The notes under the pieces were generated by a model that was not told the origin of the DNA, made no database searches, and saw nothing but the letters and a program-made list of their open reading frames with translations. A stretch of DNA of 64,000 nucleotides from Candidatus Neomarinimicrobiota bacterium. Its GTDB lineage: Bacteria > Fidelibacterota > Marinisomatia > Marinisomatales > TCS55. Positions within the stretch are counted from its first letter, which is position 1, and every line of letters starts with the position of its first letter. Positions 28,474 through 56,504 of the stretch are shown one piece after another. A program made the translations under genes and the position numbers. Location of the stretch: positions 1 through 64,000 of the forward strand of contig JABIDL010000037.1 in the NCBI GenBank assembly GCA_018651745.1, written 5' to 3'.

Positions 28474-28746
28474 TTAGGTAAAAGAAAAATGTTTTGCGAC
28501 GGGTTTAATTATTTTCCATGTGCATTTTAATCCTGATGGAAAAATGACAAAATCGCCGGGCTTAATATGTACAGTCTCTTGATCAGTTTGTACTTTAATA
28601 TCACCCTCTAAAATAAGACATGATTCTTCCACAGAATATTCCCATGGAAATTCAGATATTTCGCAAGACCAGATTGGCCATTGAAACACTCCGATTTCCG
28701 TGAGCTCTTCTTTTGATGGTTGTGAAATTAAAATGTGGTCTGTCAT
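28474..28746 (-). CDS. Small cupin-fold protein (DUF861-like)
   Basis: A 90-residue single-domain cupin. The barrel signature is seen in [16 protein letters not shown], then [19 protein letters not shown], matching the cupin_3/DUF861 group, which lacks the full set of His metal ligands found in classic cupins. It has no signal peptide. It lies immediately upstream of gcvP and is probably co-transcribed with it, but a functional link to glycine cleavage is not established. The substrate is unknown. Confidence 0.85.
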
Positions 28747-28876: not shown

Positions 28877-30127
28877 ATGAAGCACCCACTTATTCACTTA
28901 GTCAAAGACAAAGAACGATTATCTTCTTTGGCAAAGCAATTTGGAACCCCTCTATATTTATATTCTGGGAAACAATTGCAGGAAAACATATTGAGATTTA
29001 AAACCGCTCTCGATTTATTTTTTCCGAACAACCATCTTTGTTACGCAATCAAAGCCAATAACAATCCTCATTTGGTGAAATATATGAAAAATGTCTTGGA
29101 TACCTTAGGTGGAGATTGTTCAAGCCCTGGTGAATTATATGTAGCCGAAAAATCTGGGATAAATCTGGAAGATTCTATTTATACTGGGAATTATGAATCC
29201 TCGGACGATTTGAAAACGGCATTGGAAAGTGGAGTTTGTATAAACCTAGATGATACTACATCATTTGGTAGGTTAAAAATCATCGGATTACCGTCACGAT
29301 TGTCTTTTAGAATAAATCCGGGATTCGGGAAAGGATCATTTTCCCAAGTTACAACTGGAGGACGAGAAGCGAAATTTGGGATACCTAGGGATAATATAGT
29401 TGAAGCTTATACATTAGCGTTGAATGAAGGTGTGTCTAGGTTTGGTTTGCATTGCATGACAGGATCTGGTGTGCTTGAAGAGGATTATTTCGTAGAAATG
29501 ATGAAATCCTTGTTGATAGATGCCAAGCGAATTGAGGCGGAATTAAACCGACCGTTAGAATTTATATGTATAGGCGGTGGCTTTGGAATCCCATACAAAG
29601 AAAATGAATCTGAGTTAGATATCGAACGTCTTATGAAAAGACTTAGTGTTGAGTTTTTTCACACATATCCAGATAAAGATAAAGCTCCATCGCTTTGGTG
29701 CGAACCCGGTAAATTTCTCGTCGGAGATGCCGGTATATTGTTGGCCAGAGTAACCGGACTTAAGGACGGATATAGGAAATTTATTGGATTGGATGCGGGG
29801 ATGGAAACTCTGATGCGACCAGGGTTGTATGGCGCGTATCATAAAATTTACAAAGTTGGTGATGTTGATGCAGAACACAATCAAGTTGTGGACATTACCG
29901 GGAGAATTTGTGAAAATACAGACAGGCTGGCGGTGGATCGTCCTTTTCCATATGTTGAAGAAGGCGACTTAGTTTGCGTGATGGATGTTGGTGCCTATGG
30001 ATATGCGATGTCGCACCAGTTTAATACACGACCTCGTCCGGCAGAAATATTAATAAGTGATACCGAAAACAAATTGATTAGAAAGAGAGAATCCATTGAG
30101 GACATTTTCCGAAATTGTGATTTTTAA
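28877..30127 (+). CDS. lysA: Diaminopimelate decarboxylase
   Basis: PLP enzyme that converts meso-diaminopimelate to lysine. The alanine-racemase-type barrel carries PLP Lys in CYAIKANNN (residue 59 from ATG 28877), GGDCSSPGE, the ICIGGGFGIPY phosphate-binding Gly loop, CEPGKFLVG and C-terminal DVGAYGYAMSHQFNTRPRPAE. A TTG at 28871 is in frame, but the ATG at 28877 is preferred. The next gene begins inside its 3' end, so lysA heads a run that also encodes a GH18 glycosidase, a NamZ-like muramidase and an M14 peptidase. That suggests DAP from degraded murein could be its substrate, besides the biosynthetic supply. Confidence 0.95.
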   Translation: MKHPLIHLVKDKERLSSLAKQFGTPLYLYSGKQLQENILRFKTALDLFFPNNHLCYAIKANNNPHLVKYMKNVLDTLGGDCSSPGELYVAEKSGINLEDSIYTGNYESSDDLKTALESGVCINLDDTTSFGRLKIIGLPSRLSFRINPGFGKGSFSQVTTGGREAKFGIPRDNIVEAYTLALNEGVSRFGLHCMTGSGVLEEDYFVEMMKSLLIDAKRIEAELNRPLEFICIGGGFGIPYKENESELDIERLMKRLSVEFFHTYPDKDKAPSLWCEPGKFLVGDAGILLARVTGLKDGYRKFIGLDAGMETLMRPGLYGAYHKIYKVGDVDAEHNQVVDITGRICENTDRLAVDRPFPYVEEGDLVCVMDVGAYGYAMSHQFNTRPRPAEILISDTENKLIRKRESIEDIFRNCDF

Positions 30128-32558
30128 ACGTTTTTTACTCATCCTGTTTATTGGGTATGGGTTCAGTCAATCCTTTCAAAGTACTCACCAAACCCAGTTG
30201 GAATATTACAATCAACATTATGCCCAAGAAGAGTATCAAGCAAACTCATCTACAGTAATTCTTGGCAAAAGTGGAAGGCAACGAACGCCGACAAAAGAAA
30301 TTTTTGGGTATCACCCCTATTGGATGGGAACCGCTTGGCAGAATTATAATTACAACCTTTTGACTACCATCGCCTATTTTGGTGCAGAAGCAACCGCAAC
30401 TGGCGATTTGAGCGACCTACATAGTTGGCCCGTAAGTGGATTGATTAACATGGCCCACGCCAACGGAGTGGATGTTGTATTGGTAGTAACTCTATTCAAT
30501 AGTTCATCCCTCACTACACTTCTTTCAAGCAACACCAATCGTCAAAATTTGATAAATAATTTAATCACTCAGGTACAAGCCGGGAATGCAGATGGTGTCA
30601 ATATCGATTTTGAATCTATGCCCTCATCACAAAAACAAAATATGGTCACTTTTATTACTGATCTTACTGCGGCGTTTCATAGTTCAATTCCGGGTTCACA
30701 GGTGACATTGGCGATGCCCGCTGTAGATTGGAGCGATGGCTGGGATTATCTCGCGTTAGCTCAAAATAGTGACGGACTTTTCATTATGGGATATGATTAT
30801 CATTACAGCGGAAGCTCAACCACTGGCGCAAACGCGCCTTTAACTGGTGGCAGTTACAATGTTACAAATACAATTAACACGTATTTGAATGAAACTGGAG
30901 GATTGGCGGAAAAAATAATTTTGGGCTGTCCATATTTTGGTTTTGAATGGCCGGCGACCAGTGGATCCCCCGGAGCCAGCACCACAGGCACAGGATCTGC
31001 TAAATTCTATTCCGCTCAGGAACCGCTGGCACAATCTTACGGAAAGCTTTTGGATACCGGATCCCAAACTCCGTGGTATCGCTACCAAAACCCGGATTGG
31101 TATCAAGGATGGTATGATGACAGCTTATCCTTATCTAAAAAGTACGATTTTGCGCTCCAGAACAATTTAAAAGGTGTAGGCATGTGGGCATTGGGATATG
31201 ATGGAACAAATCCTGAATTATGGGAATCGCTTGCAGATAAGTTTGGTGCCGAATCTGCACCAACCGTCCCAACTGAATTGGCGATGACAAATATCGGCAA
31301 TGGGTCTGTGATGATTGAATTTGGCGGAGCTATCGGATCGGACAGTGTGACCATATTGAGAGGTTATTCAAATGCGTCGAATGTGGATACATTGGGTAGT
31401 TATAGTCAGCGACCAATTGTTTTAACTGATTTGACAATTGATGAGCCTTACTATCTTCGCATCTACGGAATCAACTCTTTTGGATCAAGTCCAACAACAG
31501 AAATGTTGGGAATCGTTCCAACTGCAGAAAATGTAAATGTTTTGGTGGTTAACGGATTTGATCGATTAAACGGAACCAACAATTCACATGATTTTATCCG
31601 TCAGCACGGCTCCGCAATTCATTCTTCGGGATATGCGTTTGAAAGCGCCAGCAATGAAGCTGTGATAGGTGGAAATATCAGTCTAAATGATTATGAAATT
31701 ATCGACTGGATTTTGGGTGAAGAAGGTACCGCAACAAGCACTTTTACTTCAACGGAGCAAACGTTTGTAGCAGATTTCCTCAATAATGGAGGAAGATTAT
31801 TTGTATCCGGTTCTGAGGTTGGGTATGACTTATCCGCTCAAGGGAGTTCAGATGACGTCCAATTCTACAATCAATATCTAAAAGCCCAATATATCAGCGA
31901 TGCTGCCGGCGGTGGACAAGGAGTCTATAGTGGATACGGAGTGAATGGATCAATTTTAGATGGAATAAATTCCATAACTTTTGATGATGGAACCCAAGGA
32001 ACATACGATGTGGATTGGCCGGATGGAATAAAACCATTGACCGGGGCGGCGGTTTGTGCTAAATACAGTGGGGTGGACTATTCTTCTCGAGGAGGAATGG
32101 GCGTTTCCTATGACGGCACATTTAGCATTTCAGGGAGCCACGGCGCTATAGTTTATCTATCAGTCGGATTTGAGGCCATTTATCCGGAAAACTCACGCAA
32201 CCAAATCATGAGCGAAATCCTTAATTATTTTGAGCAAATTCCTACAGCTTCAACCACTACAGAAAATAATATTCCCCGCGCATTTGGAATTGAATCAGTT
32301 TTCCCAAACCCATCTAACTCTACCATAAACATATTACTTTTCTTCCCGCAGAGTCATACCAATTACACTCTATCTATCATTGATTTAGTTGGACGAACTA
32401 TTCTTACAGAAAATATTTTATCCACATCTTCAGGAAAGATTAATTGGACTTGGGGTGGTGAGACTAAAACAGGCGAACCTGCATCTTCTGGCGTATATCT
32501 TGCAGTTCTTTCAAATGGAAAAAAACAGAGTGTTTACAAATTCAGCTTATTAAAATGA
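30096..32558 (+). CDS. T9SS-exported GH18 glycosidase, peptidoglycan-glucosaminidase-like
   Basis: After a signal peptide (LLILFIGYGFSQS) comes a GH18 barrel (about residues 65-390) beginning IFGYHPYWMG. Its active-site strand is DGVNIDFE (Asp166, Asp171, catalytic Glu173), with Asn169 where chitinases have the middle Asp. DGVNIDFE is typical of YaaH/SleL-type enzymes acting on GlcNAc in peptidoglycan, so chitin is less likely. A fibronectin-like linker (about 395-475), a module of about 230 residues shared with the protein at 60207-62837 (about 478-716), and a T9SS sorting domain (about 735-820) follow. Start: TTG 30096, with a purine-rich GAGAGA upstream, or GTG 30117; both lie inside the lysA end and both keep the signal peptide. 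Confidence 0.85.
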   Translation: MRTFSEIVIFKRFLLILFIGYGFSQSFQSTHQTQLEYYNQHYAQEEYQANSSTVILGKSGRQRTPTKEIFGYHPYWMGTAWQNYNYNLLTTIAYFGAEATATGDLSDLHSWPVSGLINMAHANGVDVVLVVTLFNSSSLTTLLSSNTNRQNLINNLITQVQAGNADGVNIDFESMPSSQKQNMVTFITDLTAAFHSSIPGSQVTLAMPAVDWSDGWDYLALAQNSDGLFIMGYDYHYSGSSTTGANAPLTGGSYNVTNTINTYLNETGGLAEKIILGCPYFGFEWPATSGSPGASTTGTGSAKFYSAQEPLAQSYGKLLDTGSQTPWYRYQNPDWYQGWYDDSLSLSKKYDFALQNNLKGVGMWALGYDGTNPELWESLADKFGAESAPTVPTELAMTNIGNGSVMIEFGGAIGSDSVTILRGYSNASNVDTLGSYSQRPIVLTDLTIDEPYYLRIYGINSFGSSPTTEMLGIVPTAENVNVLVVNGFDRLNGTNNSHDFIRQHGSAIHSSGYAFESASNEAVIGGNISLNDYEIIDWILGEEGTATSTFTSTEQTFVADFLNNGGRLFVSGSEVGYDLSAQGSSDDVQFYNQYLKAQYISDAAGGGQGVYSGYGVNGSILDGINSITFDDGTQGTYDVDWPDGIKPLTGAAVCAKYSGVDYSSRGGMGVSYDGTFSISGSHGAIVYLSVGFEAIYPENSRNQIMSEILNYFEQIPTASTTTENNIPRAFGIESVFPNPSNSTINILLFFPQSHTNYTLSIIDLVGRTILTENILSTSSGKINWTWGGETKTGEPASSGVYLAVLSNGKKQSVYKFSLLK

Positions 32559-33850
32559 ATAAAACCATTCATTCATTGTTATTACTTGGATTCATTTCTT
32601 ATTTATCGAGTCAGGACATTTCTATCCATCAGCAACAGTCCGAAGAGTTTAAAAATAAAAATGTACCACCTGCCGATTTTGTAAAGATACAAACCGGATT
32701 TGATATATTATTAGCCGAAAAAAGTGATGTGTTAAAAAACAAAAAGATAGCTCTAGTCACCAATCACACCGGAGTTGATGATAAAGGGATTCCAAATTAT
32801 AAACGACTAATGGAAATAGATGGTGTAGAATTAAAAGTAATATTTTCACCTGAACATGGATTGTTTGGAGAAGCTGCAGCAGGTGAAAAAGTCAATTATG
32901 ACGGTAAAATAATCCATTTGCCTAAAGTGATTAGTTTGTATGGAAAAAACAGGAAGCCAGACCCTGCATTATTGGATGAACTGGATTGGGTGATTTATGA
33001 TATCCAAGATGTTGGTGCTCGATTTTATACTTACATATCTACATTGGGGTTGGTCATGGAATCTGCTGCCAAAGCCGGAGTTCCGGTCATGGTGTTAGAT
33101 CGTCCAAACCCAATCAGAGGAGATAAAGTAGAAGGTCCGGTGCTTAATGTAGAGTTTAAATCGTTTGTAGGTTTCTATCCCATCCCTGTTCGATACGGTT
33201 TAACAGTCGGAGAATTGGCTAAAATGATTGCCGGAGAAAACTGGATTAATTCAATTCCGGAATTGACTGTCGTTTGGATGAAAGGCTGGAAAAGAAGTCT
33301 TTGGTACGATGAAATTACCACAAAATGGAACGCACCATCTCCCAATATTCCGAATTTGGAAACAGCGACAGTGTATTCTGGCACATGCTTAATTGAAGCC
33401 ACAAATGTGAGTGAAGGACGTGGTACAGATAATCCTTTCCTCTGGATTGGCGCGCCATGGATTAATTCATTAAAATTATCACAGGCATTAAATAAGCAAT
33501 CTCTTCCGGGCGTTATTTTTAAGCCAATCACATTTCTTCCAAAGGATATTCCCGGAGCTGCCATAAATCCTAAATATAATGGTCAAGAATGTAAAGGGGT
33601 GGAAATATTCGTAATTGATAGAAACAGTTTTCTACCAATTTTGATGGGTGTTTCTCTTTTAAGTACAATAAAAGAACTATATCCGAACAAGGTGGAGTTA
33701 AAAGAAGCATCCTTGAAACGATTATGGGGAAAGTCTGATCTAAATAAACTCAGAAAGATTTCTATTGATCCTAAAAAATTACTTGAATCATACGAAGATG
33801 AAATAAATAAATTTAAATCGGCATCATCACAATATTTGTTCTATGAATAG
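32555..33850 (+). CDS. namZ: NamZ-type exo-beta-N-acetylmuramidase (DUF1343, GH171)
   Basis: Family DUF1343, shown in Bacillus subtilis to be an exo-lytic N-acetylmuramidase that removes MurNAc from the non-reducing end of peptidoglycan fragments. Recognised by KKIALVTNHTGVD, VIFSPEHGLFGEAAAGE, WVIYDIQDVGARFYTYISTL, VMVLDRPNPIRGD and the later GTCLIEATNVSEGRGTDNPF. A signal peptide (LLLLGFISYLSSQ) places it in the periplasm. There is no T9SS domain, unlike its neighbours. The ATG overlaps the GH18 stop (ATGA), implying coupled translation. At 431 residues it is full length. Confidence 0.92.
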   Translation: MNKTIHSLLLLGFISYLSSQDISIHQQQSEEFKNKNVPPADFVKIQTGFDILLAEKSDVLKNKKIALVTNHTGVDDKGIPNYKRLMEIDGVELKVIFSPEHGLFGEAAAGEKVNYDGKIIHLPKVISLYGKNRKPDPALLDELDWVIYDIQDVGARFYTYISTLGLVMESAAKAGVPVMVLDRPNPIRGDKVEGPVLNVEFKSFVGFYPIPVRYGLTVGELAKMIAGENWINSIPELTVVWMKGWKRSLWYDEITTKWNAPSPNIPNLETATVYSGTCLIEATNVSEGRGTDNPFLWIGAPWINSLKLSQALNKQSLPGVIFKPITFLPKDIPGAAINPKYNGQECKGVEIFVIDRNSFLPILMGVSLLSTIKELYPNKVELKEASLKRLWGKSDLNKLRKISIDPKKLLESYEDEINKFKSASSQYLFYE

Positions 33851-35069
33851 TTCGTTTAAACAAATTCTAGGATTTTCTTTTTTATCATCAGTATTATGCT
33901 GTCAAAATATCCAAGGGGACCAATATAAGTGCGGTTATCAGGATATGCGTAGCAATAAACAATTCAAACAAACATTAAATTGGGGATATGGTTATGACAG
34001 CCTGCTTTTTGATTTAGCAACTTGGGGAACAAGCCCGTATGTGACCATCGATTCATTAGGCGCAACCGTACAAAATAGGGCCATTTGGGAGTTGACCATT
34101 GCAAACAACTCGGAGTCAAACTCAAATCGTCGAGTTTACATTCATGCCCGTACTCATCCAGGAGAAGAAGAATCTTTCTGGGTTACTAACGAAATTATCA
34201 ATATCCTTTTATCAGAAACTCCTTTTGCCACATTTATTAGGTCAAATTGCACTTTTCACATTGTTCCTATGTATAATCCAGATGGTGTTGAATTAGAATA
34301 TGCGCGTGAAAATGCAAACGGCATTGATATCGAAAGTGGATGGGATGATAATCCATTGGAACCTGAAGTGCTTGTGTTAAAAAATAGGTTTATTGAACTA
34401 ATGGCAATGGACAATCCTGTGGAAGTAGCATTAAATATGCATTCTGCCTATTCATGTAAACGCTATTTTGTTTATCATGATGCAGCCGGGACTTCTGACA
34501 GCTATACTAATTTAGAGCAGCAGTTTATTGGTGGTATCCAATCTTACTTCGTAGGTGGAATTGAAAATTGGGATTATTTTGTTAGTTGGACATCCGGCAC
34601 GCCTGATCAATATCCGGAGAGTTGGTGGTGGATGAATCAAGGTGAAAACGTAATGGCGCTAACTTATGAGGACATGAATTGTGTAGAAGCCGGCTCTTAT
34701 GATTCAACAGCCTATGCCATTGTCCGTGGTATTATTGATTATCTTGGTTTGAGTTATACGTGGATTGAAGATGAAAATAATATACTACAGACTGAATTTT
34801 CATTGAGCCAAAATTTCCCCAACCCCTTTAATCCGAGAACAAACATTCGTTATAGTGTTTCGTTAAATGACCATGTAAAAATAACTGTTTTCGATTTAAT
34901 GGGTCACGAGGTTAAGACATTGCTTGATTCAAAAGTAAGTATAGGAAGTGGTTTGGTACAGTGGGATGGCAGAAATTTTAGAGGAGAAATTGTACCTTCT
35001 GGAGTATATATTTATTCCGTTAAAGCCGGTGAATTCAACCAATCCCGGAAAATGATAATACTTAAATAA
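33843..35069 (+). CDS. T9SS-exported M14 zinc carboxypeptidase
   Basis: Zinc metallocarboxypeptidase. A short leader ending CC-QN precedes the M14 domain (about 45-305). Zinc ligands are His105 and Glu108 (HARTHPGEEE) and His200 (ALNMHSAYS); the general base is Glu276 (ALTYEDMN); VPMYNPDGVE is the usual substrate-site strand. The C-terminus (about 318-408) is a T9SS domain starting FSLSQNFPNPFNP. The ATG overlaps the NamZ stop by 8 bases. M14 includes gamma-D-Glu-DAP peptidases acting on murein stem peptides, and the operon context favours that, but ordinary protein carboxypeptidase activity remains possible. It converges with the PorV/Q gene, 4 bases away. Confidence 0.9.
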   Translation: MNSSFKQILGFSFLSSVLCCQNIQGDQYKCGYQDMRSNKQFKQTLNWGYGYDSLLFDLATWGTSPYVTIDSLGATVQNRAIWELTIANNSESNSNRRVYIHARTHPGEEESFWVTNEIINILLSETPFATFIRSNCTFHIVPMYNPDGVELEYARENANGIDIESGWDDNPLEPEVLVLKNRFIELMAMDNPVEVALNMHSAYSCKRYFVYHDAAGTSDSYTNLEQQFIGGIQSYFVGGIENWDYFVSWTSGTPDQYPESWWWMNQGENVMALTYEDMNCVEAGSYDSTAYAIVRGIIDYLGLSYTWIEDENNILQTEFSLSQNFPNPFNPRTNIRYSVSLNDHVKITVFDLMGHEVKTLLDSKVSIGSGLVQWDGRNFRGEIVPSGVYIYSVKAGEFNQSRKMIILK

Positions 35070-35073
35070 TATA

Positions 35074-36126
35074 TTAAAACTTATAGCCGACGGATATTCG
35101 TTGGATCATTCCCAAAGGACCATAATCAGCAGTAGAGTATTCCAATTTGATAATATTTGATGTACGAAATAAGTGGTAATCTAGTCCAGCGCCAATAGTT
35201 AAACCTTCTATGGAGTCTTTTTTCCCCAAGGATGGATATCCTGCGCGCAAGTAAATAGCTTTATAGAATATTAACTCTCCACCTAGGTTGAGATATTCAT
35301 AATTATCATTAGGATGAATTGCGTCTATGGCAAACATAGCACTGATAGTTTTTGTGTTGAGTAAATAGCCACCAATCCCGACTCGAAAAAATAATGGTAA
35401 TGGAAATGCATCGGTTTGGTATTCAGCATTAACAAATTCGACATTCCCCTGATTCACCGGGTCCGGGTCTACGCTAATATTCATGTCTCGCCCCATAAGT
35501 GATAAATCATTCCCAAAATTTGATATGCTGGCACCTAACATTAAATCCCAAATGGGTGTTTTGTATTGAACGCCAATATCCGTTGCTATGGATTGACCAG
35601 TAGAATGCCAAATTCGTTGCCTGATGTTCTTAATACTTGCACCAAGAGCCAATCGATCAGTGAGGTTTCTTGCAATGGTAAACACTATCGCCATATCTTG
35701 GGCATTGAACTTATCTCCGGTCCCTTTTGGTTTATCAACTGTTCTCACTAGATCATATGGAGTGGAAAGCATCGCCAAGGAAAGTGAAAACACTCCTACG
35801 CTAGGCCAGGAAAATCCAACTGCGCCATATTGAAAATCAGTTCCTGCTAACCATTCGTTATTTTCAAAATAAACTTGTATCCCCTGCAAATGAGCTAACC
35901 CTGCGGGATTCCAGTAACTGCTTGAAAGATCCGAGCAAAGGGCTACTATTGCACTTCCCATAGCGGAACCACGCCCTCCTATACCAATTTTTAAAAATTG
36001 GGCGGCAGTAGTTCCCTTTTTAGAGATATCTTGGTCATTTGCTACTTGTCCAAATATTGTTGAACTTATAAGCAACAGATAAAATATTTTCAAAATAAAT
36101 GGTGATGTTTTTGTGTGTTGTTTCAT
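35074..36126 (-). CDS. PorV/PorQ-family outer-membrane protein
   Basis: Signal peptide ending TIFGQ, then the family opening AAQFLKIGIGGRGSAMGSA and YWNPAGLA, followed by alternating amphipathic strands and a terminal aromatic residue (ISVGYKF), as expected of a beta-barrel outer-membrane protein. PorV carries T9SS cargo from the translocon to the attachment complex; PorQ has a related role. The ATG overlaps the stop of the upstream 1,125-residue T9SS cargo gene (ATGA), so the pair is co-translated. Which paralogue it corresponds to is not decidable from sequence alone. Confidence 0.85.
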   Translation of the reverse strand: MKQHTKTSPFILKIFYLLLISSTIFGQVANDQDISKKGTTAAQFLKIGIGGRGSAMGSAIVALCSDLSSSYWNPAGLAHLQGIQVYFENNEWLAGTDFQYGAVGFSWPSVGVFSLSLAMLSTPYDLVRTVDKPKGTGDKFNAQDMAIVFTIARNLTDRLALGASIKNIRQRIWHSTGQSIATDIGVQYKTPIWDLMLGASISNFGNDLSLMGRDMNISVDPDPVNQGNVEFVNAEYQTDAFPLPLFFRVGIGGYLLNTKTISAMFAIDAIHPNDNYEYLNLGGELIFYKAIYLRAGYPSLGKKDSIEGLTIGAGLDYHLFRTSNIIKLEYSTADYGPLGMIQRISVGYKF

Positions 36127-39100
36127 TTGATTAGCGCAAATCTGCCTACTACTTCATTACCGGATTCACTTTCTACGTGAAAAATATACACTCCGAATGC
36201 AACAGGGAAATTGTCAGAAGTAGTTAAGTCCCAATATTCGATTCCATCTTCAATGCTGCTTTCATGTTTTAGGGTGCGTACCAAGTCCCCAGAAATAGTA
36301 TAAATTTTAATAGTACAATTAGATGGAAGATTTGCGAAATAAATTCGTCTCGGGCCTCTGTCCTGTGGATTTTGAAGATCAAGCTGTTCAATCTTATTAG
36401 AGACCACATAAGGGTTTGGGACAACATAAATGTTATCCATATTATCTTTTTCCACCTGAGTATCACCTGAGGAAGCGGTGGTTGAAAATGTGAATATATC
36501 ATCCGTAAAAGACCGATTGGTGTATATAGTAAAGATATCACCTTCTTTTGGTGGTATGGTATCCAAGACCGCAGTTGGTTCATAAAATGTCATTTCCCAT
36601 GAAGCTGAAGAAAGCGTTGAATCTTGAAGGAAAATTATTCGTTCACCAGGATTCCATAGGCTATCTGAAGCGCCAGATTCAACTATCATAAATTCTAATT
36701 GTTTTTCTGTATTTTTTCGAGTGGTTTCCCAAAGTTCAAAGTTCGTTTTTACATATTCAAATCCTGGACGAGAGTTTGAGCTGACGGCAGAGTTAAACCA
36801 ACGTATTTCATAATCAGCTGGATAAAAATTTGTTGAAAGGTTATTAAACGGTTTTACCAACCAAGTCCAATTTGTGTTGCTTGATTCATTCCAATTAATT
36901 TGATCATTATCAAGTTCCAGCTGATTATCTTGAACTGTAAGTGTCATACCGTCAAAAATTGGATTTCCTTCTTCCGAGGCCATTTTTATGCTATTGCGAA
37001 TAGGGAAATATCGGTACATGACAATAATAGTTTCTCCTTCTGTCATAGATCCTGATCCAAGCGCATAAATTTGTCCATCATCAGGTAACAGATTAAAATC
37101 AACATCTTCAGAATAAGCAACTCCATTCAAGGAAGTAACTGAAACAAAGGAAGTATCTAAATTTTTATGAGAAAGTTTAGTGTATTGCCCTAACCGGACT
37201 ACAACACTGTCAGAAACGTCTTTTTGATCTAAAACGCTATATTCAACTTGGCTACCATTATCGGTGAAAATAATCTGATAACTATTATCACTTTCAATTG
37301 CAGTATTATCTATTATATCTACAATGACATCTCCAGTCCCTTTACCATTAATTTGCTCAACCCCCGACTCATTGATACTGGAAGGAACATAGCCTGCTGT
37401 TGGTGCTTTCGGAACGATCGAAACCGTATTTATATCTAACATAATTTCATTTGTTTCGGGATTAACAGTAATATTTTTTGAGCATTCTGCTGGAGCAACA
37501 ATCATGGTAGCATCGCCGTGGTCATAGGAAACAACTGCATAATAATAGTTTTGTCCATTCACCACATTATTTGAATCGACAAATACATGGCGCAGGCCAG
37601 TATTATTACCAAGGTTGTAGCTTATTCCTCTTCCTGTATACGGAATTGAGCTGAGCCCATAATAATCATTATTGAGATCAAATCGAGCAGAGGCGCCATC
37701 CGGTGTTTTAAGCGGTTCAAATAAAAACCTAGATCCATTTGCATCCGTTATTGTTTGTTGATCAAGGAACTGTGGATCTGTGCTTCTGTAAATTACATAG
37801 CCTTCAAAATCGTAGGTTTCGGTAATTGGATCAAAAGAAGATTCAGCACCATCATCCCAGTAAAGTGTAACTTTTTCGTCTCCGGGAACGGTTGTCACAA
37901 TTGGTTTTTTCGGCGGTTTGGCAAACTGGTAGTTTTTTTCATAGATATCTTGGGCTGTTACAGCATTAAGCGTTAAATCATCATAATCTTGTCCAACCAA
38001 TAGAGCAATACTAAATCTTCTTGCATCTCCAGCCGGTAAATTTATTGGGCCACTGCTATAAATAAATATAAAATCACCTGCCTGGACAGAATTGGCTGAA
38101 TCAAAAACGCCCGGGGTAAGATAGTTTTCAAAAATAAACTGATCATTTGATATACGATTTTGACTGGTGAAGGGGGGAGATGAAAATCCGGTCAAACCAA
38201 GCATGTCAGATTCGTCCAAATCTGTCCAATCGATATTGGGTTCTCCCGGTTTTCGTAAATCAAATGGATCGCCAGGAGAGGGAACGCCATCATTTTCACC
38301 TTCATCACCGGTGTTTGGAACCCCATCTATTCCAACATCATGTTTTTCTGAGTCCCAATCGCCATCGTCATCAATCCCATTATCCTGCGATTCGTCAATC
38401 ATACCATCATTGTCGTTATCTATACCATCGTATGGTTGACCTGGGCTTTCTAAAAATTTGTACCCAAAATACCCTGGAGTTTTTCCGCTTACATCACTTA
38501 ATCCATCCTCGTCCCAGCAATAGACCATATTTAAATCTCGATCAAAGTAAGAAAGGTCATCTTGCCAATTGGATGGTCCGCCCACATGGGGATCGCCCCA
38601 CATGCCAAAAGTGACATTTTCGAGGTCTTTTGAACTCTTATTTGTTACTTTGAAGATTAAGAAAATAATATCTTCTGCAAGCGGATTGGCCCACTGATAA
38701 TATCGGGATTCAATTTCTATTCCGAGTCCGCGTCTGGATGAATCTGATAGGAAAGGATAGTACTCAAATTCTTTATTATTGCGGTCATCCACTACGAAAA
38801 ATGACTCCAAATCAGAATTAGATGACCCTTGTCTAAGAGCACCTGGCCAAACGTAGTCCTTGAGGTTTTCATTGTACCATCCAAAAGGCCAACTATCGGG
38901 TTTTCCATCTCCATCTCTGTCTAAATCATTGCTGGTGGGGATATTTTCACTGAGCGGATCTGCATATGGAATGGTTAAATCATCATTCCATCCTAAGGGC
39001 TCCCATCCATAAAATTCCGTTCCATCCGGCGAAACTTCACCGCCTAAAGATGTCAACCCATCGCTGATAACTCTGGCATACCAAGTCGTATCTCCCGCAT

Positions 39101-39500
39101 TATCGATTTTGAAGTATGCATCTTGGTGACTCCCCGGAGAAACTTCAACCTCGGCGCAAATGAAAGGACCAAATTCATAGCCGTAACCCAAGCCTTCCCA
39201 TACAATGTCTGTTACACGATTCCCGGGACTCGATATTGACCCATAGTTCCATATTTCTGTTGTTATTTTATTACCATTTAGGATAGCTTTTTGCCTTCTT
39301 AAAATTTGATCGCCCTGGTGTTCTGCAAACTGTTTTTTGTAGATACCTTCTCGCCAATCATAATACCGATTATAGTCGCGTTGAGTCCATTTTTTTTCTG
39401 GGCCGTTTCGGTACCATTCCAAATCTTTTTTGAAAAACCATTGTGCTTGTATTGAAGACGTTGTAAAAAAAATAGCTAGAATAAAAAATGTACGTTTCAT
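36123..39500 (-). CDS. Large T9SS-exported protein with Asp-rich calcium-type loops
   Basis: 1,125 residues with a signal peptide ending SIQAQ, a Trp/Tyr-rich N-terminal region, a stretch at about 350-415 dense in D-x-D-x-D-G loops resembling thrombospondin-3/EF-hand-like calcium sites, several beta-sandwich-like segments, and a T9SS sorting domain in the last 90 residues (PRRIYFANLPSNCTIKIYTI, ending VVGRFALIK). No catalytic motif was recognised. It lies between a TonB receptor (2-base gap) and the PorV/Q gene (4-base overlap). I infer a surface or secreted cargo working with both. Confidence 0.85.
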   Translation of the reverse strand: MKRTFFILAIFFTTSSIQAQWFFKKDLEWYRNGPEKKWTQRDYNRYYDWREGIYKKQFAEHQGDQILRRQKAILNGNKITTEIWNYGSISSPGNRVTDIVWEGLGYGYEFGPFICAEVEVSPGSHQDAYFKIDNAGDTTWYARVISDGLTSLGGEVSPDGTEFYGWEPLGWNDDLTIPYADPLSENIPTSNDLDRDGDGKPDSWPFGWYNENLKDYVWPGALRQGSSNSDLESFFVVDDRNNKEFEYYPFLSDSSRRGLGIEIESRYYQWANPLAEDIIFLIFKVTNKSSKDLENVTFGMWGDPHVGGPSNWQDDLSYFDRDLNMVYCWDEDGLSDVSGKTPGYFGYKFLESPGQPYDGIDNDNDGMIDESQDNGIDDDGDWDSEKHDVGIDGVPNTGDEGENDGVPSPGDPFDLRKPGEPNIDWTDLDESDMLGLTGFSSPPFTSQNRISNDQFIFENYLTPGVFDSANSVQAGDFIFIYSSGPINLPAGDARRFSIALLVGQDYDDLTLNAVTAQDIYEKNYQFAKPPKKPIVTTVPGDEKVTLYWDDGAESSFDPITETYDFEGYVIYRSTDPQFLDQQTITDANGSRFLFEPLKTPDGASARFDLNNDYYGLSSIPYTGRGISYNLGNNTGLRHVFVDSNNVVNGQNYYYAVVSYDHGDATMIVAPAECSKNITVNPETNEIMLDINTVSIVPKAPTAGYVPSSINESGVEQINGKGTGDVIVDIIDNTAIESDNSYQIIFTDNGSQVEYSVLDQKDVSDSVVVRLGQYTKLSHKNLDTSFVSVTSLNGVAYSEDVDFNLLPDDGQIYALGSGSMTEGETIIVMYRYFPIRNSIKMASEEGNPIFDGMTLTVQDNQLELDNDQINWNESSNTNWTWLVKPFNNLSTNFYPADYEIRWFNSAVSSNSRPGFEYVKTNFELWETTRKNTEKQLEFMIVESGASDSLWNPGERIIFLQDSTLSSASWEMTFYEPTAVLDTIPPKEGDIFTIYTNRSFTDDIFTFSTTASSGDTQVEKDNMDNIYVVPNPYVVSNKIEQLDLQNPQDRGPRRIYFANLPSNCTIKIYTISGDLVRTLKHESSIEDGIEYWDLTTSDNFPVAFGVYIFHVESESGNEVVGRFALIK

Positions 39501-39502
39501 CT

Positions 39503-42157
39503 TTATAAGTCCAAAGAAAAGCCAAATTTAAAAGATCGTGGGGCAGAATAATAGTTTGGGCGAGTTATATACTCATCCCACGTATGGATCCCCGGCTGTC
39601 CATAATGGGAAATGAATTCTGCCGTTTCCTGACTGCTTCGGTTCTCATAGGTGAATTCTGCCGAGCCGGTGTCATCAAATACATATCTTTCATTACGTAT
39701 ATCAAATACATTATAAACTCGAGCGAAGAGAGAAACCTGCTGTTTACCAATTGATATTCTACTTTCGATTTTAAGGTCCAGATTTCGCTGAACTGGTTTC
39801 CGTCCACTATTGGGTTTTGGCACATAATTCGCATAGGGTATGGATGGTGTATAAGGCCATCCGGTTGAAATTTTACCAATGAGTCCCACTGTTGTTTTTG
39901 AGGGATCTCCAATAATGATTGTGGTATTTAACAGGTGCGCCTGATCCCAGGATAACGGAACAATAAGCTTTTCTTCTTCAACGCCGCTTAAAGTACTAAA
40001 ATAAAATGAACCGGATTTAACTGAATTTCCTTCCGATTTCTGATAAGTATAGTCAAGCCAGATGCTTGTTTTGGAAATCGGGTCGTATCGTTTAGTTGCA
40101 GAAAGAGTTAATCCTCTAGACGTGCCGTAATCTTTATTCAAATATATGTCATAATTAGACGGACCGTATTGAGGGCTGTCATAGCGGATATTCTGCAGCG
40201 CTAATAGTTCGCGGATATCTTTGTAGAAGAGATTTAGGTCCATCCCGATCAATTGGCCGAATTGCTGTTGGAAACCGAATTCATAGAGAACTGTTTTTTC
40301 CGGTTTCAAATCAGGATTACCAACAGTTGGTGTAAGTCCTGCACCAAAATAACTTTCACGGTATAAATTTCGCAGGGTAGGCATTTGGTAAAAATGTCCA
40401 TAGGAAAAATGAAAAATTCCAGTATCGGTAATGGGAAGAGAAACACCAATTCGAGGAGAAATCATTGTCTTTTCACTGGCTGCACTTTTTCCTGCCTGCG
40501 GATAAACAAGATCTGCTATAGATGAATCTTTGGGCACAAAAGCATCATATCGCACACCTAAATTCATGATCATGGAACTATATTCCATTTTATCCTGAAT
40601 ATATGCTGAATATTGCAACGCATTCTTTTTGTAATACACATGATAAGGAGATTCATTTTCTGGTAAAACGGTTGGCTGTAGATAATTTTGATTATATTGA
40701 ATAGAAATGTTTCTTTCCTCAAGGTTATCCCTGCGAAAACTAAAACCGGTTTTTAATTCATGCCTTTCTGACACTTGCATAGTAAAATCAAATTTCCCAC
40801 CTAAAGAATTCGAAGTTCTATAAGTATGTCCCATTTGGGTGCCGCCAAATAAAAAGGTGGCCGAGGTTGGCTCTGTATTGATGTAATCAGTAGAAACATA
40901 TCTGCTGTCAGTAGTATCCTCATACAAGTAGTTTTTATAATCTGTATTACTTATAAATACATTAGCTTCGTAAAAGCTTTTCTCAGTCAGGGAATGATTT
41001 ATTTTAATCGAATGATTGTTATTATCCGAAAGCTTTGACCCAACTCCATCCGGATTATATTTATATTCATGAGAATAACTCTTACGTTGTGATTGAGATA
41101 AAATAGATTGAGTAGAAATTTTCAAACGGGGAGAAAGCCGTAATGTAAACTTTGCCAGAGAATTGGTACTTTCACTAGGATTCATGGGTACGAAAGCACT
41201 ATCACCACGCATTTGAATATACCAATTACCGCTTGGCGGGAAATACGCTAAATCATCGGGGTTGTGCTCACGGATTCCAAAGAGATAACCCTCGCTTTCA
41301 CTCCGGCGAATGGAAACATTAAATGTCAAAAAATCACCAAGGAATGGCAGAACCGGTCCTGAAATAAAACCGTCAAAAGTTCGATTTGCTGTCATGCTGA
41401 GATTGTCAATATTGGGGTAAATGTTTGAGGCCTTTGATGCATAGTCACCACTGTAAATTGAAAGACTACCGTCATAATGTTTTCCACCATCTTTAATTTT
41501 TACATCTACTACACCACTCATCGCATTGCCGTATTCTGCATTAAAGGCGCCACTCACCAACTTCATTTCTTCTAATGCTTTGTTACTGATGCTAACAGCC
41601 AGAGAATTGGTAAAAAAGGGATTAGATACAGAAACTCCATCAATAAAATATCCGATCTCATTGCTTCGCCCTCCACGAACGTGCAATGCGCCCCCCGCAC
41701 TACGGTTTACTCCAGCATGGGTGGCGAGGACACCTAAAAATGATTCGACAGGTAAGTCTTGAATGTCATCCGCTGTCGTTACGCGCTGTGACGCTGTTAA
41801 ATCTTTCTGCACCAAGGGTCTTTTCGCAATTACCACGACTTCCTGCCCTTGAACCACCTCTTCGTCCAATTTAAACTCGAGATCAGTAGTTTGGCCGGTT
41901 GTGACTCGAACTTCTTTCATAGTGATTGTTGCAAATCCTATTGCATCTACTCGGACAGTATAAGTCCCGGGAGGAATATTCATGATAGTAAAGCGTCCTG
42001 ATTCATCAGTGGCGGCTCCTAAATATGTATCCACCAAGATTACATTCACACCAACCGCTGGTTCAGCATTCGTTTTTTGTTTAACGACTCCAATGATTTT
42101 ACCATTGGAAGCAAACAAGATTCCCGCGAAATGAAGGATGATTAAAATTTTTTTCAT
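39503..42157 (-). CDS. TonB-dependent receptor with carboxypeptidase-regulatory-like N-domain
   Basis: Outer-membrane active transporter or receptor. After a signal peptide ending LFAS there is a CarboxypepD_reg-like domain (GKIIGVVKQKTNAEPAVGVN..., about 20-105), then a TonB plug (DIQDLPVESFLG, RGGRSNEIGYFIDGVS) and a 22-strand type barrel ending in aromatic residues (KFGFSLDL). The frame extends to a GTG at 42184, but the extension runs through a hairpin; ATG 42157 gives a clean signal peptide. The substrate is unknown. It probably forms a unit with the two downstream genes (T9SS cargo, PorV/Q). Confidence 0.92.
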   Translation of the reverse strand: MKKILIILHFAGILFASNGKIIGVVKQKTNAEPAVGVNVILVDTYLGAATDESGRFTIMNIPPGTYTVRVDAIGFATITMKEVRVTTGQTTDLEFKLDEEVVQGQEVVVIAKRPLVQKDLTASQRVTTADDIQDLPVESFLGVLATHAGVNRSAGGALHVRGGRSNEIGYFIDGVSVSNPFFTNSLAVSISNKALEEMKLVSGAFNAEYGNAMSGVVDVKIKDGGKHYDGSLSIYSGDYASKASNIYPNIDNLSMTANRTFDGFISGPVLPFLGDFLTFNVSIRRSESEGYLFGIREHNPDDLAYFPPSGNWYIQMRGDSAFVPMNPSESTNSLAKFTLRLSPRLKISTQSILSQSQRKSYSHEYKYNPDGVGSKLSDNNNHSIKINHSLTEKSFYEANVFISNTDYKNYLYEDTTDSRYVSTDYINTEPTSATFLFGGTQMGHTYRTSNSLGGKFDFTMQVSERHELKTGFSFRRDNLEERNISIQYNQNYLQPTVLPENESPYHVYYKKNALQYSAYIQDKMEYSSMIMNLGVRYDAFVPKDSSIADLVYPQAGKSAASEKTMISPRIGVSLPITDTGIFHFSYGHFYQMPTLRNLYRESYFGAGLTPTVGNPDLKPEKTVLYEFGFQQQFGQLIGMDLNLFYKDIRELLALQNIRYDSPQYGPSNYDIYLNKDYGTSRGLTLSATKRYDPISKTSIWLDYTYQKSEGNSVKSGSFYFSTLSGVEEEKLIVPLSWDQAHLLNTTIIIGDPSKTTVGLIGKISTGWPYTPSIPYANYVPKPNSGRKPVQRNLDLKIESRISIGKQQVSLFARVYNVFDIRNERYVFDDTGSAEFTYENRSSQETAEFISHYGQPGIHTWDEYITRPNYYSAPRSFKFGFSLDL

Positions 42158-42191
42158 ACGTAAAAGGGGAGTGCAATTTTGCACTCCCCTT
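42158..42191 (-). terminator. Terminator-like hairpin just before the TonB receptor start
   Basis: On the minus strand AAGGGGAGTGCA and TGCACTCCCCTT form a perfect 12-base stem with a 4-base loop, followed by TTTTACG and then the ATG at 42157. The T-run is short, so termination may be partial. It lies 30 bases after the stop of the FG-GAP protein gene and could end that transcript or act as a processing or attenuation element. Confidence 0.6.
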
Positions 42192-52769: not shown

Positions 52770-55700
52770 CTAATGGAGTTCATTCATTTTGAATTCTTTC
52801 AAAAAACCATCGGACCAACGGATTCGAATTCTATCCACCTTCCTTTGATTATTATTACCCCCAATAAATACAATCGGCGCTGATTGAGATAAATAACCTC
52901 CACCGGCTGAAATTTCATGAAGTTGAATTGTTTCATCAGAAAAATCCACCCAAATTTTTGCTCCAACATAATTATGGTTTTCTGATAATTCTGTTAAATG
53001 AATAGCAGTCATTTTTGAATGCGTTAGGTTTATAAAAACTTTTACTACTGCATTGTTCACCCCGGCAATGAAATCAGGTTTTCCGTCACGATTGATATCG
53101 TTAATTGTCAAGCTGGTCCCATCTTTTGGAAGCAGGAGTCCGCTTATATCTGGTGTAATACTCTGAAAATTCCCCGATCCATCACCAAGAAGCAACAAGC
53201 TCACGCCTCCATCCATGTAGCCGGTTTCTCGTTGGGGTCCATAGAAATTTTGCACCACATAAAGATCTAAATTCCCATCACCATTTATATCGCAAATAGC
53301 AGAACCGAAAATTGGACTCGCTTGGGCTATTTGAGGTAAAGGGTGAAACTCGAATTGAGTATTTCCTTGAGTATCGGTTTCATTAATGAGGATTCCTGAT
53401 GCTAAACTGTTAACCTCGAATTTTTCAGCGATCTCAAGCCGAGTTTCTGTATAAATGTCTTTTAGGGATGTAATCGCAAAATCATGATAGGATGGCAATT
53501 TTTGTTTTACCATTGGCATCGCATCACTTGAGCACCCTAACCCACGGCGCGGTAGGCAAATCCCATTTTCGTATTTTGCCTCGATAATACGCTTGATACC
53601 GTTTCCTTCAAAGTCTCCGTAATATAATATTTCCGGTTTTGTGTTTGAAGCTTTGTACTTTGTATTAAAACCAAAATTGCCAACTAAATAATCTGTGTCA
53701 CCATCATTGTCGATATCGCCTCCGCTGATACTATTGTACCAACCCATACGGGTTGCCAAGCCAACTTTAGAAGTGCGCTCAACGAGTCGACCATTTTCAT
53801 TGTGAAAAAATCGTACCGGCCCCCATTCGTAAGTAACCAACAAATCGGGATGATGATCTGCATCTACATCTGTAAACAGTGCACTTGTGACCATTCCTGC
53901 GTGCTTGATTCCCGGGGCAATCGTATTTGTTATATCTTCATATTTTGTCCCGGTAAAGCGTAACACTGTTGAATTGGGTGATTCCGGATAATTCCCAGGA
54001 ATTATCCTTCCACCAATAAACAACTCTAAAGATTTATCGCCATCAATATCAGCCGCAATAATTACGCTACCACTATTCCGAATATCAGGTAGCAGATCTG
54101 ATTTTGTAAAAGAACCCTCACCATCGTTGGTATAAAGACGATCCCGTAAAACATCATCACCCGGCTCACATTCTACGCCACCACTTACTACATACAAATC
54201 GAGGTCTCCATCGTGATCAAAATCAATGAATAGCGATCCCATATCCTCTGATCTGATATCATCGTTGAAACTTATTTGCGACGTTTTAAGAAATGTTCCG
54301 TCTCCTTGATTGCGATGAATCGATCCAATAAAACCAGAAGACCCTCCAATGAAAAGATCGTCGTATCCATCTCCATCAATGTCACCCCATGCCAACCCCG
54401 GACCAAGTTGTGAAGATTTATTAGGTAGCAACTTTTGTCGTTCAAAATCATCGTATATTTTTTCCATGTGAATTGCGCTTGACAACACATTTTGGTTTTG
54501 CGAAAACATTGTCATTTTTATCGGTTTTGTATTTTCTTGTTTTATGTCCTCAACTACTGTTTTGGGCTCAATAATTGTATATAAATATCCAGTGGGAAGA
54601 TCTTGCAAAATTTGTTGTTTACCTGTCGGCCAATAAATTGTTATTGTATCTGCTTTTTCTGTTTTAGCCAAACCAAAGTGTACAATGGATTCACTTGATG
54701 ACATGAACCCTCTTGATGTTGCGATATATCGTGTTTGTTTGGTATCACCATCTGCCTTCAAAACAATTTTTGATCCTACGCCATTATAATTACTTGATCT
54801 GCCTTTGAGTTTGATACGAAGCGACCTTCCGGAAGAAACATCATTGCGATAAACACGGACAGGCTCATTAAATCCATTCACGACAAGGTCGAGATCTCCA
54901 TCTCCATCCAAATCACCCATTGCAGATCCGGTACTAATACCAAGATGGTCTAATCCCCACTGTTTACTGAGATTTGTAAATTGCAAGTCGCCCCGATTTT
55001 TATACACTTGGTTCTTCAATTTGTATGGTTTTTGCTGCTCCCACCATTCTAATTCTTTTTCTGCAAAAGAATCATCCTTAGCTGCAATGTGTTGTGATTT
55101 GTCTTTTAAGTCTCCATTGAAAAAATCGCGAGACATTCCATTTGTGAAATATACATCTTCAAATCCATCATTGTCTAAATCGCCAAATTTTACAGTCCAA
55201 GTCCAATCTGTTTTCGCCAACCCCGTAAGGTAGGCAACTTCCATAAACCGATCGGTGCCGGTATTTAGATAAAGTGCATTTCTCATGTATTGCGGCGGGT
55301 TTGGGAAATTCAAAAACCAAGCATCACTATTTGGCCCGCTCATAGAACCCATAGATAATTTATCTCGATAGTGGTTACTCCCAGCCATGTCAGAAGCAAG
55401 ATAATCTATCCAGCCATCATTATTGATATCTGAATAATCTGAACCCATAGAAAACCAGGGAGTGTGTGGAAATGCTTCGTTTGCAACATCAGTAAATGAA
55501 ATGAATCCATTAGCGTCTGGACCATTATTACGATATAGATGATCAGGACCCATGTAGTCATTTGCAACATACAAATCAGGCCAACTATCATCGTTATAAT
55601 CCCACCAAGTTGCAGACAGCCCATAATATGGCAGCTTTCCAATTCCCGATTCAACCGAAACATCAACAAATGTGCCGTTGTCATTTCTATATAAATGATC

Positions 55701-56504
55701 AAATTGACCCGCCGGCACTAACATTTGCATACGATTGGGAGGTTTTACGATATAGGCAAGTTCGCGGGAATCAGGATGTATAAGAATTCTTCTATTTTCC
55801 TGACGAATTATTTTTACGTTTTTAATATCAGAACTTGGCTGCAATCGATTGGTAAGCAGATAACCATCCAAATCTCCATCCCGATCATAATCGGCAAAGG
55901 ACATTGTAACGCTTGCCCCGTTAAAATCGAGACCGTATTTACTTGCTTCCTCAGTGAATTTTCCCTGCTGATTAATATAAAGCCTGTTAGGGCAGTCAAA
56001 ACCTGACACAAATAAATCAAGCCAACCATCATTGTTTAAATCCGCAAAGGTTGCACCGGTGCTCCACATTCCAGCCGGATTCATGCCCACTTTTTCCGTA
56101 ACATCTTCAAATTGAAACCCACCAAGGTTTTGATACAATCGTCCTCCATCCATTTGTCGTGTTAAGAATATATCAGCTAAGCCATCCCGATTGTAGTCTC
56201 CAATTGCTACTCCTGAGGCAATAAATGAATTGCGAATTTGATCACGGTGTTTTTGGCTCGGATTCCAAGTATTGTGAAAGTCGATATCTGTCTCTCCGGA
56301 TTTTAATAAAACGAATTGGTGGTTTGAATTTGTTGAATTATTAAAAGGTGTCGCAGATAAATCCGGATTTTTTTCTCCCAATTCCTGCACACGAAGTAAT
56401 GATTGGGATGAAATCATCCAATTTTCATTCGCATCGATTTGCTTACTCTCTCCGCAACCGAAAAAATAAAATGAAAGAACCGATAAAATAATTTTATTAA
56501 TCAT
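52770..56504 (-). CDS. Large FG-GAP/ASPIC-UnbV lipoprotein (CRTAC1-like)
   Basis: 1,244 residues with lipobox YFFGC (Cys17), so it is anchored rather than T9SS-exported. Two long blocks of FG-GAP/VCBS blades (GVAIGDYNRDGLADIFLT, DLDGDGDLDLVVNGF, WGDIDGDGYDDLFIGG) are each followed by an ASPIC/UnbV domain. The first is near residues 570-640 (LRIKLKGRSSNYNGVGSKI) and the second at the C-terminus (NYVGAKIWV, RIRIRWSDG). This CRTAC1/UnbV arrangement is found in surface proteins of marine bacteria. The role is unknown; calcium-dependent adhesion is the usual suggestion. The duplicated blade-plus-ASPIC unit implies internal duplication. Confidence 0.9.
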   Translation of the reverse strand: MINKIILSVLSFYFFGCGESKQIDANENWMISSQSLLRVQELGEKNPDLSATPFNNSTNSNHQFVLLKSGETDIDFHNTWNPSQKHRDQIRNSFIASGVAIGDYNRDGLADIFLTRQMDGGRLYQNLGGFQFEDVTEKVGMNPAGMWSTGATFADLNNDGWLDLFVSGFDCPNRLYINQQGKFTEEASKYGLDFNGASVTMSFADYDRDGDLDGYLLTNRLQPSSDIKNVKIIRQENRRILIHPDSRELAYIVKPPNRMQMLVPAGQFDHLYRNDNGTFVDVSVESGIGKLPYYGLSATWWDYNDDSWPDLYVANDYMGPDHLYRNNGPDANGFISFTDVANEAFPHTPWFSMGSDYSDINNDGWIDYLASDMAGSNHYRDKLSMGSMSGPNSDAWFLNFPNPPQYMRNALYLNTGTDRFMEVAYLTGLAKTDWTWTVKFGDLDNDGFEDVYFTNGMSRDFFNGDLKDKSQHIAAKDDSFAEKELEWWEQQKPYKLKNQVYKNRGDLQFTNLSKQWGLDHLGISTGSAMGDLDGDGDLDLVVNGFNEPVRVYRNDVSSGRSLRIKLKGRSSNYNGVGSKIVLKADGDTKQTRYIATSRGFMSSSESIVHFGLAKTEKADTITIYWPTGKQQILQDLPTGYLYTIIEPKTVVEDIKQENTKPIKMTMFSQNQNVLSSAIHMEKIYDDFERQKLLPNKSSQLGPGLAWGDIDGDGYDDLFIGGSSGFIGSIHRNQGDGTFLKTSQISFNDDIRSEDMGSLFIDFDHDGDLDLYVVSGGVECEPGDDVLRDRLYTNDGEGSFTKSDLLPDIRNSGSVIIAADIDGDKSLELFIGGRIIPGNYPESPNSTVLRFTGTKYEDITNTIAPGIKHAGMVTSALFTDVDADHHPDLLVTYEWGPVRFFHNENGRLVERTSKVGLATRMGWYNSISGGDIDNDGDTDYLVGNFGFNTKYKASNTKPEILYYGDFEGNGIKRIIEAKYENGICLPRRGLGCSSDAMPMVKQKLPSYHDFAITSLKDIYTETRLEIAEKFEVNSLASGILINETDTQGNTQFEFHPLPQIAQASPIFGSAICDINGDGNLDLYVVQNFYGPQRETGYMDGGVSLLLLGDGSGNFQSITPDISGLLLPKDGTSLTINDINRDGKPDFIAGVNNAVVKVFINLTHSKMTAIHLTELSENHNYVGAKIWVDFSDETIQLHEISAGGGYLSQSAPIVFIGGNNNQRKVDRIRIRWSDGFLKEFKMNELH

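Follow-up and report, generated by a model that had tools for sequence, protein, structure and literature searches.

A conserved lysA–GH18–NamZ gene order in the Marinisomatales and its probable role in supplying lysine from foreign peptidoglycan

Introduction

Muropeptide rescue in Bacillus subtilis uses NagZ, AmiE and NamZ. The locus described here resembles that system in having a NamZ-family exo-muramidase for murein sugars, but differs from it in combining this enzyme with a GH18 glycosidase, lysA and T9SS signals. The spore cortex enzymes SleL, YaaH and YdhD share the GH18 fold with our glycosidase and are among its sequence relatives, whereas the latter has a T9SS tail, other C-terminal domains and no LysM match. 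Tannerella forsythia, which uses periplasmic N-acetylmuramidases (NamZ1 and NamZ2) to scavenge MurNAc, resembles the presumed scavenger studied here in being Gram-negative and in having two NamZ paralogues; it is, however, auxotrophic for MurNAc rather than DAP, and the available part of its description mentions no link to lysA (PMC10465942).

Another close system is that of Fidelibacter multiformis IA91. According to the portion of the published account available to us, this organism needs muropeptides for its wall, carbon and energy and can make neither DAP nor lysine, and its authors place the origin of muropeptide dependence in the ancestors of the phylum (PMC11652737). The genome analyzed here belongs to the same phylum, likewise lacks recognizable DAP and lysine synthesis and would also use foreign muropeptides, but the class of Fidelibacter is described as being without wall-synthesis genes, whereas our genome has a MurE with the motif DNPR. 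That portion of the account describes no lysA–GH18–NamZ operon for Fidelibacter (PMC11652737), and, judged against it, the salvage proposed below is a variation on a muropeptide dependence already known in the phylum. The open-licence literature yielded no report of the operon, its conservation, the order-wide absence of DAP genes with LysA kept, or the protein tag described below.

The lysA–GH18–NamZ locus

The window is a 64,000-nucleotide stretch from a genome of 1.86 Mb (43 contigs, 95.8% complete) assigned to the GTDB order Marinisomatales (phylum Marinimicrobia/Fidelibacterota), which is the order meant in all counts below. Among named genomes, close matches to its NamZ come from Candidatus Neomarinimicrobiota. 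The initial annotation had reported four overlapping plus-strand genes, lysA, GH18, NamZ and M14, at 28877–35069, and recomputed coordinates and family matches bore this out (Table 1). On the profile evidence, LysA, GH18 and NamZ are firmly assigned to their families; for M14 the assignment is adequate. LysA scored 358.6 bits against TIGR01048 (cut-off 297.9) and has the Lys-PLP and CEN motifs. NamZ scored 259.2 bits for NamZ_N and 149.8 bits for NamZ_C, and its PEHG acid motif is invariant, along with other columns, across 11 aligned orthologues. The best start of GH18 is the GTG at 30117: translation from it begins with a clean signal peptide, and the gene then overlaps lysA by 11 bases. A TTG at 30096 is a possible alternative. 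GH18 and NamZ meet in an ATGA overlap, and NamZ and M14 overlap by 8 bases.

Table 1. Features of the lysA–GH18–NamZ–M14 region, in window coordinates.
Feature	Position	Strand	Basis
lysA, meso-DAP decarboxylase, predicted cytoplasmic, only copy in genome	28877..30127	+	TIGR01048
GH18 glycosidase, predicted T9SS-exported, proposed murein endo-N-acetylglucosaminidase	30117..32558	+	PF00704
GH18 N-terminal tag STHQTQLEYY, immediately past signal peptide	30180..30209	+	profile and regex tests
DGVNIDFE, GH18 active-site motif	30591..30614	+	sequence
GH18 T9SS C-terminal sorting domain	32298..32543	+	PF18962 and TIGR04183
NamZ, exo-beta-N-acetylmuramidase family, signal peptide, without T9SS tail	32555..33850	+	PF07075 and PF20732
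NamZ N-terminal tag SIHQQQSEEF, motif common to GH18	32621..32650	+	sequence, motif tests
M14 metallocarboxypeptidase, predicted T9SS-exported, apparent lineage-specific addition	33843..35069	+	PF00246
M14 T9SS C-terminal sorting domain	34815..35060	+	TIGR04183, 37.1 bits

The T9SS signals noted earlier on GH18 and M14 were confirmed by TIGR04183 matches and are compatible with the suggested breakdown of foreign murein outside the cell. NamZ had no such match; with its signal peptide, it is probably periplasmic. A scan for promoters and terminators gave no clear excess over shuffled sequence.

Several features surround the locus. A small cupin-like ORF lies on the minus strand between gcvP and lysA (28480–28746). 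Convergent to the unit, at 35074–42184 on the minus strand, are a PorV-family gene, a gene for a 1125-aa protein and a TonB-dependent receptor gene. This set recurs in more than a dozen relatives, where a T9SS Amidase_2 gene often adjoins porV, and it is possible that it serves outer-membrane uptake of muropeptides. Farther off (52770–56504, minus strand) is an FG-GAP/ASPIC repeat protein with a weak match, just below threshold, to the lysozyme inhibitor family PliI. The genome also encodes a second NamZ (G000:C40:11788-13062, locus L032), 35% identical to the first, which adjoins a sodium:solute symporter and has no SIHQ tag.

Conservation of the gene order

NamZ orthologues were located in a set of 130 genomes of the order; we retrieved 74 stretches and read their gene content. 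The order lysA–GH18–NamZ was found in many genera and several families, mostly with overlapping ends, a recurrence that argues against a chance arrangement. Counting one row per genome, the gene directly downstream of lysA on the same strand belongs to the unit at 49 of the order's 59 lysA loci: it is GH18 at 40, a remnant or C-terminal piece of GH18 at 3 and NamZ at 6. These and our other counts come from related MAGs and so are not independent events. The full four-gene order proposed in the initial annotation fared differently from its first three genes: with M14 it was present in no fetched locus.

The murein context and its link to lysA, by comparison, are kept through the order. Loci of relatives have near the unit a PBP4-type Peptidase_S13 (27 loci), an AmiA-like PF07313 protein (19), a GH3-beta-lactamase fusion named by eye from sequence (20), a NagZ GH3 (11), a GH20 (11), a T9SS Amidase_2 (9) and an S66 LD-carboxypeptidase (8), as well as SpoIID, a ROK-like kinase and a Na+ symporter. 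Where lysA is separated from NamZ, its neighbors are mostly still GH18, amidases, LdcA/DacB or NagB. No NagZ or amidase gene stands beside NamZ in the window, and GH18 and M14 had been thought to take the places of these two enzymes; since relatives encode GH3/NagZ and amidases in the same neighborhoods, we do not retain that idea.

In families f10 and f11, lysA lies beside thrC/thrB or homoserine dehydrogenase, and a GH18 remnant still adjoins it in one genome of each (G041 and G048, respectively). This setting points to lysine supply rather than breakdown. Thus, the murein-to-lysine link of the proposed "catabolic" operon stands, but "salvage" describes it better. Five f10 genomes have lysA without a murein neighbor within the stretch examined, which counts against salvage; in the four of these exceptions that were read, lysA adjoins threonine-pathway genes (named by eye).

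Similar couplings exist elsewhere in the phylum. The sister family f20 couples GH18 and an LD-carboxypeptidase (LdcA) to a LysA that belongs to a distinct clade with good support, and in G150 lysA is flanked by a symporter and NamZ, with a GH3 adjoining. These arrangements suggest that LysA came to be linked with murein salvage, or that the link was rebuilt, on more than one occasion. In contrast, the deep-branching G191, which has dapB, shows lysA followed by dapD- and dapA-like genes (both named by eye from translations); dapB lies some 2 kb off. NamZ loci outside the phylum often include GH3, and none showed a lysA orthologue.

LysA without DAP synthesis

Searches with curated cut-offs, in which positive controls matched, found dapA and dapB in none of the 130 genomes of the order and dapF in two. 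None of the three was found in the window genome, in which LysA hence has no recognizable DAP pathway to complete. Sub-threshold DapA-like proteins occur in 28 genomes, the window genome not among them; of 220 genomes across the phylum, 13 encode the DapB C-terminal domain, and all 13 lie outside this order; LysX, which marks another lysine route, exceeds its cut-off in 7 of 130, again not in the window genome. In lacking both the dap genes and LysX, the window genome shows the same absence of DAP and lysine synthesis as Fidelibacter. Imported DAP would therefore be the natural substrate of its sole LysA, and this argument makes the case for salvage much stronger than it was from the window sequence alone. 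Among 45 well-assembled genomes of the order, 29 have both lysA and NamZ, none lysA only, seven NamZ only and nine neither (lysA over cut-off, orthologous NamZ, coded by hand; Fisher p ~1e-5, relatedness ignored). At residues 275–285 the window LysA reads EPGK in place of EPGR, as do the LysA proteins of the order that were read; EPGR is kept in the LysA of f20 and of the dap operon.

MurE is present almost everywhere in the order and carries DNPR, a motif associated with DAP-adding MurE enzymes, so that the wall also seems to need DAP; this second demand counts against the salvage reading. Re-use of tripeptides through Mpl was considered and rejected, as no Mpl exceeded its cut-off in the 130 genomes. 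The streamlined family f9 (G013–G036; MurE loci L170–L175) has the DNPR-type MurE, yet none of dapA, dapB, dapF, lysA or NamZ over cut-off, indicating that another route to DAP or uptake of free DAP may exist.

Exported enzymes and the shared tag

The window GH18 matches PF00704 and has the terminal-Glu motif expected of a GH18 catalytic domain, and of 30 catalytic frames scanned at related loci, 29 have DG(V/I)N(I/V)DFE. Its nearest solved sequence relatives are a Desulfitobacterium GH18 and B. subtilis YdhD, and its best sequence matches include the spore murein enzymes YdhD and YaaH/SleL. The LysM domain characteristic of the YaaH/SleL cortex-lytic type was not detected in a Pfam scan. A fold search with the structure model matched chitinases and SleL/YdhD alike and did not separate the substrates. 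At two loci, L060 (G081) and L066 (G080), the catalytic domain is lost and the C-terminal region kept in the same operon place, and this region may accordingly have a role of its own. Comparison of the GH18 C-terminal region with the T9SS Amidase_3 protein revealed no kinship.

GH18 and NamZ, although from unrelated families, carry a common tag, SIH(Q/E)xQ(L/S)EYY, directly after the signal peptide. A profile built only from 30 GH18 N-termini ranked 42 of 75 NamZ proteins above all 774 other ORFs of the loci, and a looser pattern run over 5259 open stretches recovered, besides two chance matches, only GH18, NamZ and a single GH18 remnant. In 63 loci coded by hand, ambiguous and cut-off ones being excluded, NamZ never bore the tag unless its GH18 partner was known to bear it too (37/10/0/16); a possible exception is L083, whose short contig carries a tagged NamZ but no GH18. 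G080 and G081 have lost the GH18 catalytic domain and both tags together. The tag probably gives GH18 and NamZ a common partner or place, through docking or targeting.

M14 appears to be an optional extra to the lysA–GH18–NamZ unit. Its integral membership was rejected: the congener G058 is without it, NamZ being followed directly by porV, and an orthologue near GH18–NamZ (64% identical) was seen in G086 only. The window protein reads HPGEE, NMHSA and TYED, and H105, E108, H200 and E276 are conserved with the G086 orthologue; we take the first three to be the zinc ligands (HxxE plus a later His) and E276 the catalytic Glu. The solved proteins nearest to it in sequence are other M14 carboxypeptidases; its predicted structure, made from too shallow an alignment, had a pLDDT of 38 and was set aside. 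Residues 159–167 include IESGW where related M14 enzymes have NREW, and specificity may be unusual.

Proposed pathway and alternatives

The initial interpretation as a whole is thus partly supported, and we think it likely that lysA–GH18–NamZ is an operon that salvages peptidoglycan to supply lysine, not to degrade it. The T9SS-exported GH18 would cleave chains of foreign murein after GlcNAc and yield fragments with MurNAc at their non-reducing ends, from which periplasmic NamZ would remove it. An endo-N-acetylglucosaminidase leaves MurNAc at precisely the end where NamZ-family enzymes act, and the two enzymes would therefore work in sequence. Stem peptide and meso-DAP would be freed by amidases and LD/DD-carboxypeptidases of the kinds encoded near the unit in relatives, with M14 perhaps acting on peptides where present. 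DAP would then be imported and converted by LysA to L-lysine, and LysA would thereby end a salvage route, not a biosynthetic one, in a cell that appears unable to make DAP.

LysA could instead be an ordinary biosynthetic enzyme fed by an unrecognized or diverged DAP pathway, its murein neighbors being a frozen accident or serving recycling of the cell's own wall. The DNPR-type MurE found throughout the order, including f9 genomes without the salvage genes, and the threonine-pathway genes adjoining lysA in f10 and f11 would fit this. Against it, dapA, dapB and dapF are missing over cut-off although controls matched, good genomes without an orthologous NamZ are also without lysA, and a second LysA lineage is independently tied to GH18 and LdcA. 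After the searches for these genes and LysX, we regard a simply biosynthetic LysA as unlikely.

A function in general amino-sugar scavenging, with GH18 a chitinase-type enzyme for environmental chitin and lysA incidental, strikes us as distinctly improbable. The fold search does return chitinases and GH20 adjoins the unit in some relatives, but in the orthologues read the Asp of the canonical chitinase motif is replaced by Asn, the spore murein enzymes are among the best sequence matches, and the NamZ, S13, S66, amidase and NagZ neighbors act on murein, not chitin. We give slightly less credence still to an operon that serves the wall more than lysine, in which imported DAP and sugars would enter the cell's own peptidoglycan and LysA would mainly trim excess DAP or supply a lysine-containing wall. 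The murein of Fidelibacter, as reported in the part of the account available, contains lysine and is made from imported muropeptides (PMC11652737). The MurE of the window genome nevertheless has the DAP-type motif, and it is retained here, in contrast to the wall-synthesis loss reported for class AB16.

Returning to salvage, a wider claim may be made tentatively, and we hold it with less confidence than we would need to favor it: that the whole order keeps a DAP-type wall without DAP synthesis and takes both wall DAP and lysine from foreign peptidoglycan, that LysA has been recruited to salvage on two or more occasions, and that GH18 and NamZ are joined by a previously undescribed N-terminal docking tag.

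Implications

A LysA without a DAP pathway calls for caution in automated claims of lysine prototrophy, and the tag common to GH18 and NamZ poses a concrete puzzle in protein targeting. The Marinimicrobia (SAR406), an abundant group in the ocean, are for the most part uncultured. If they do obtain DAP and lysine from foreign murein, this would link marine peptidoglycan turnover to amino-acid supply, would explain an obligate dependence on other bacteria, and would suggest muropeptides or DAP as a feed for bringing members of this phylum into culture.
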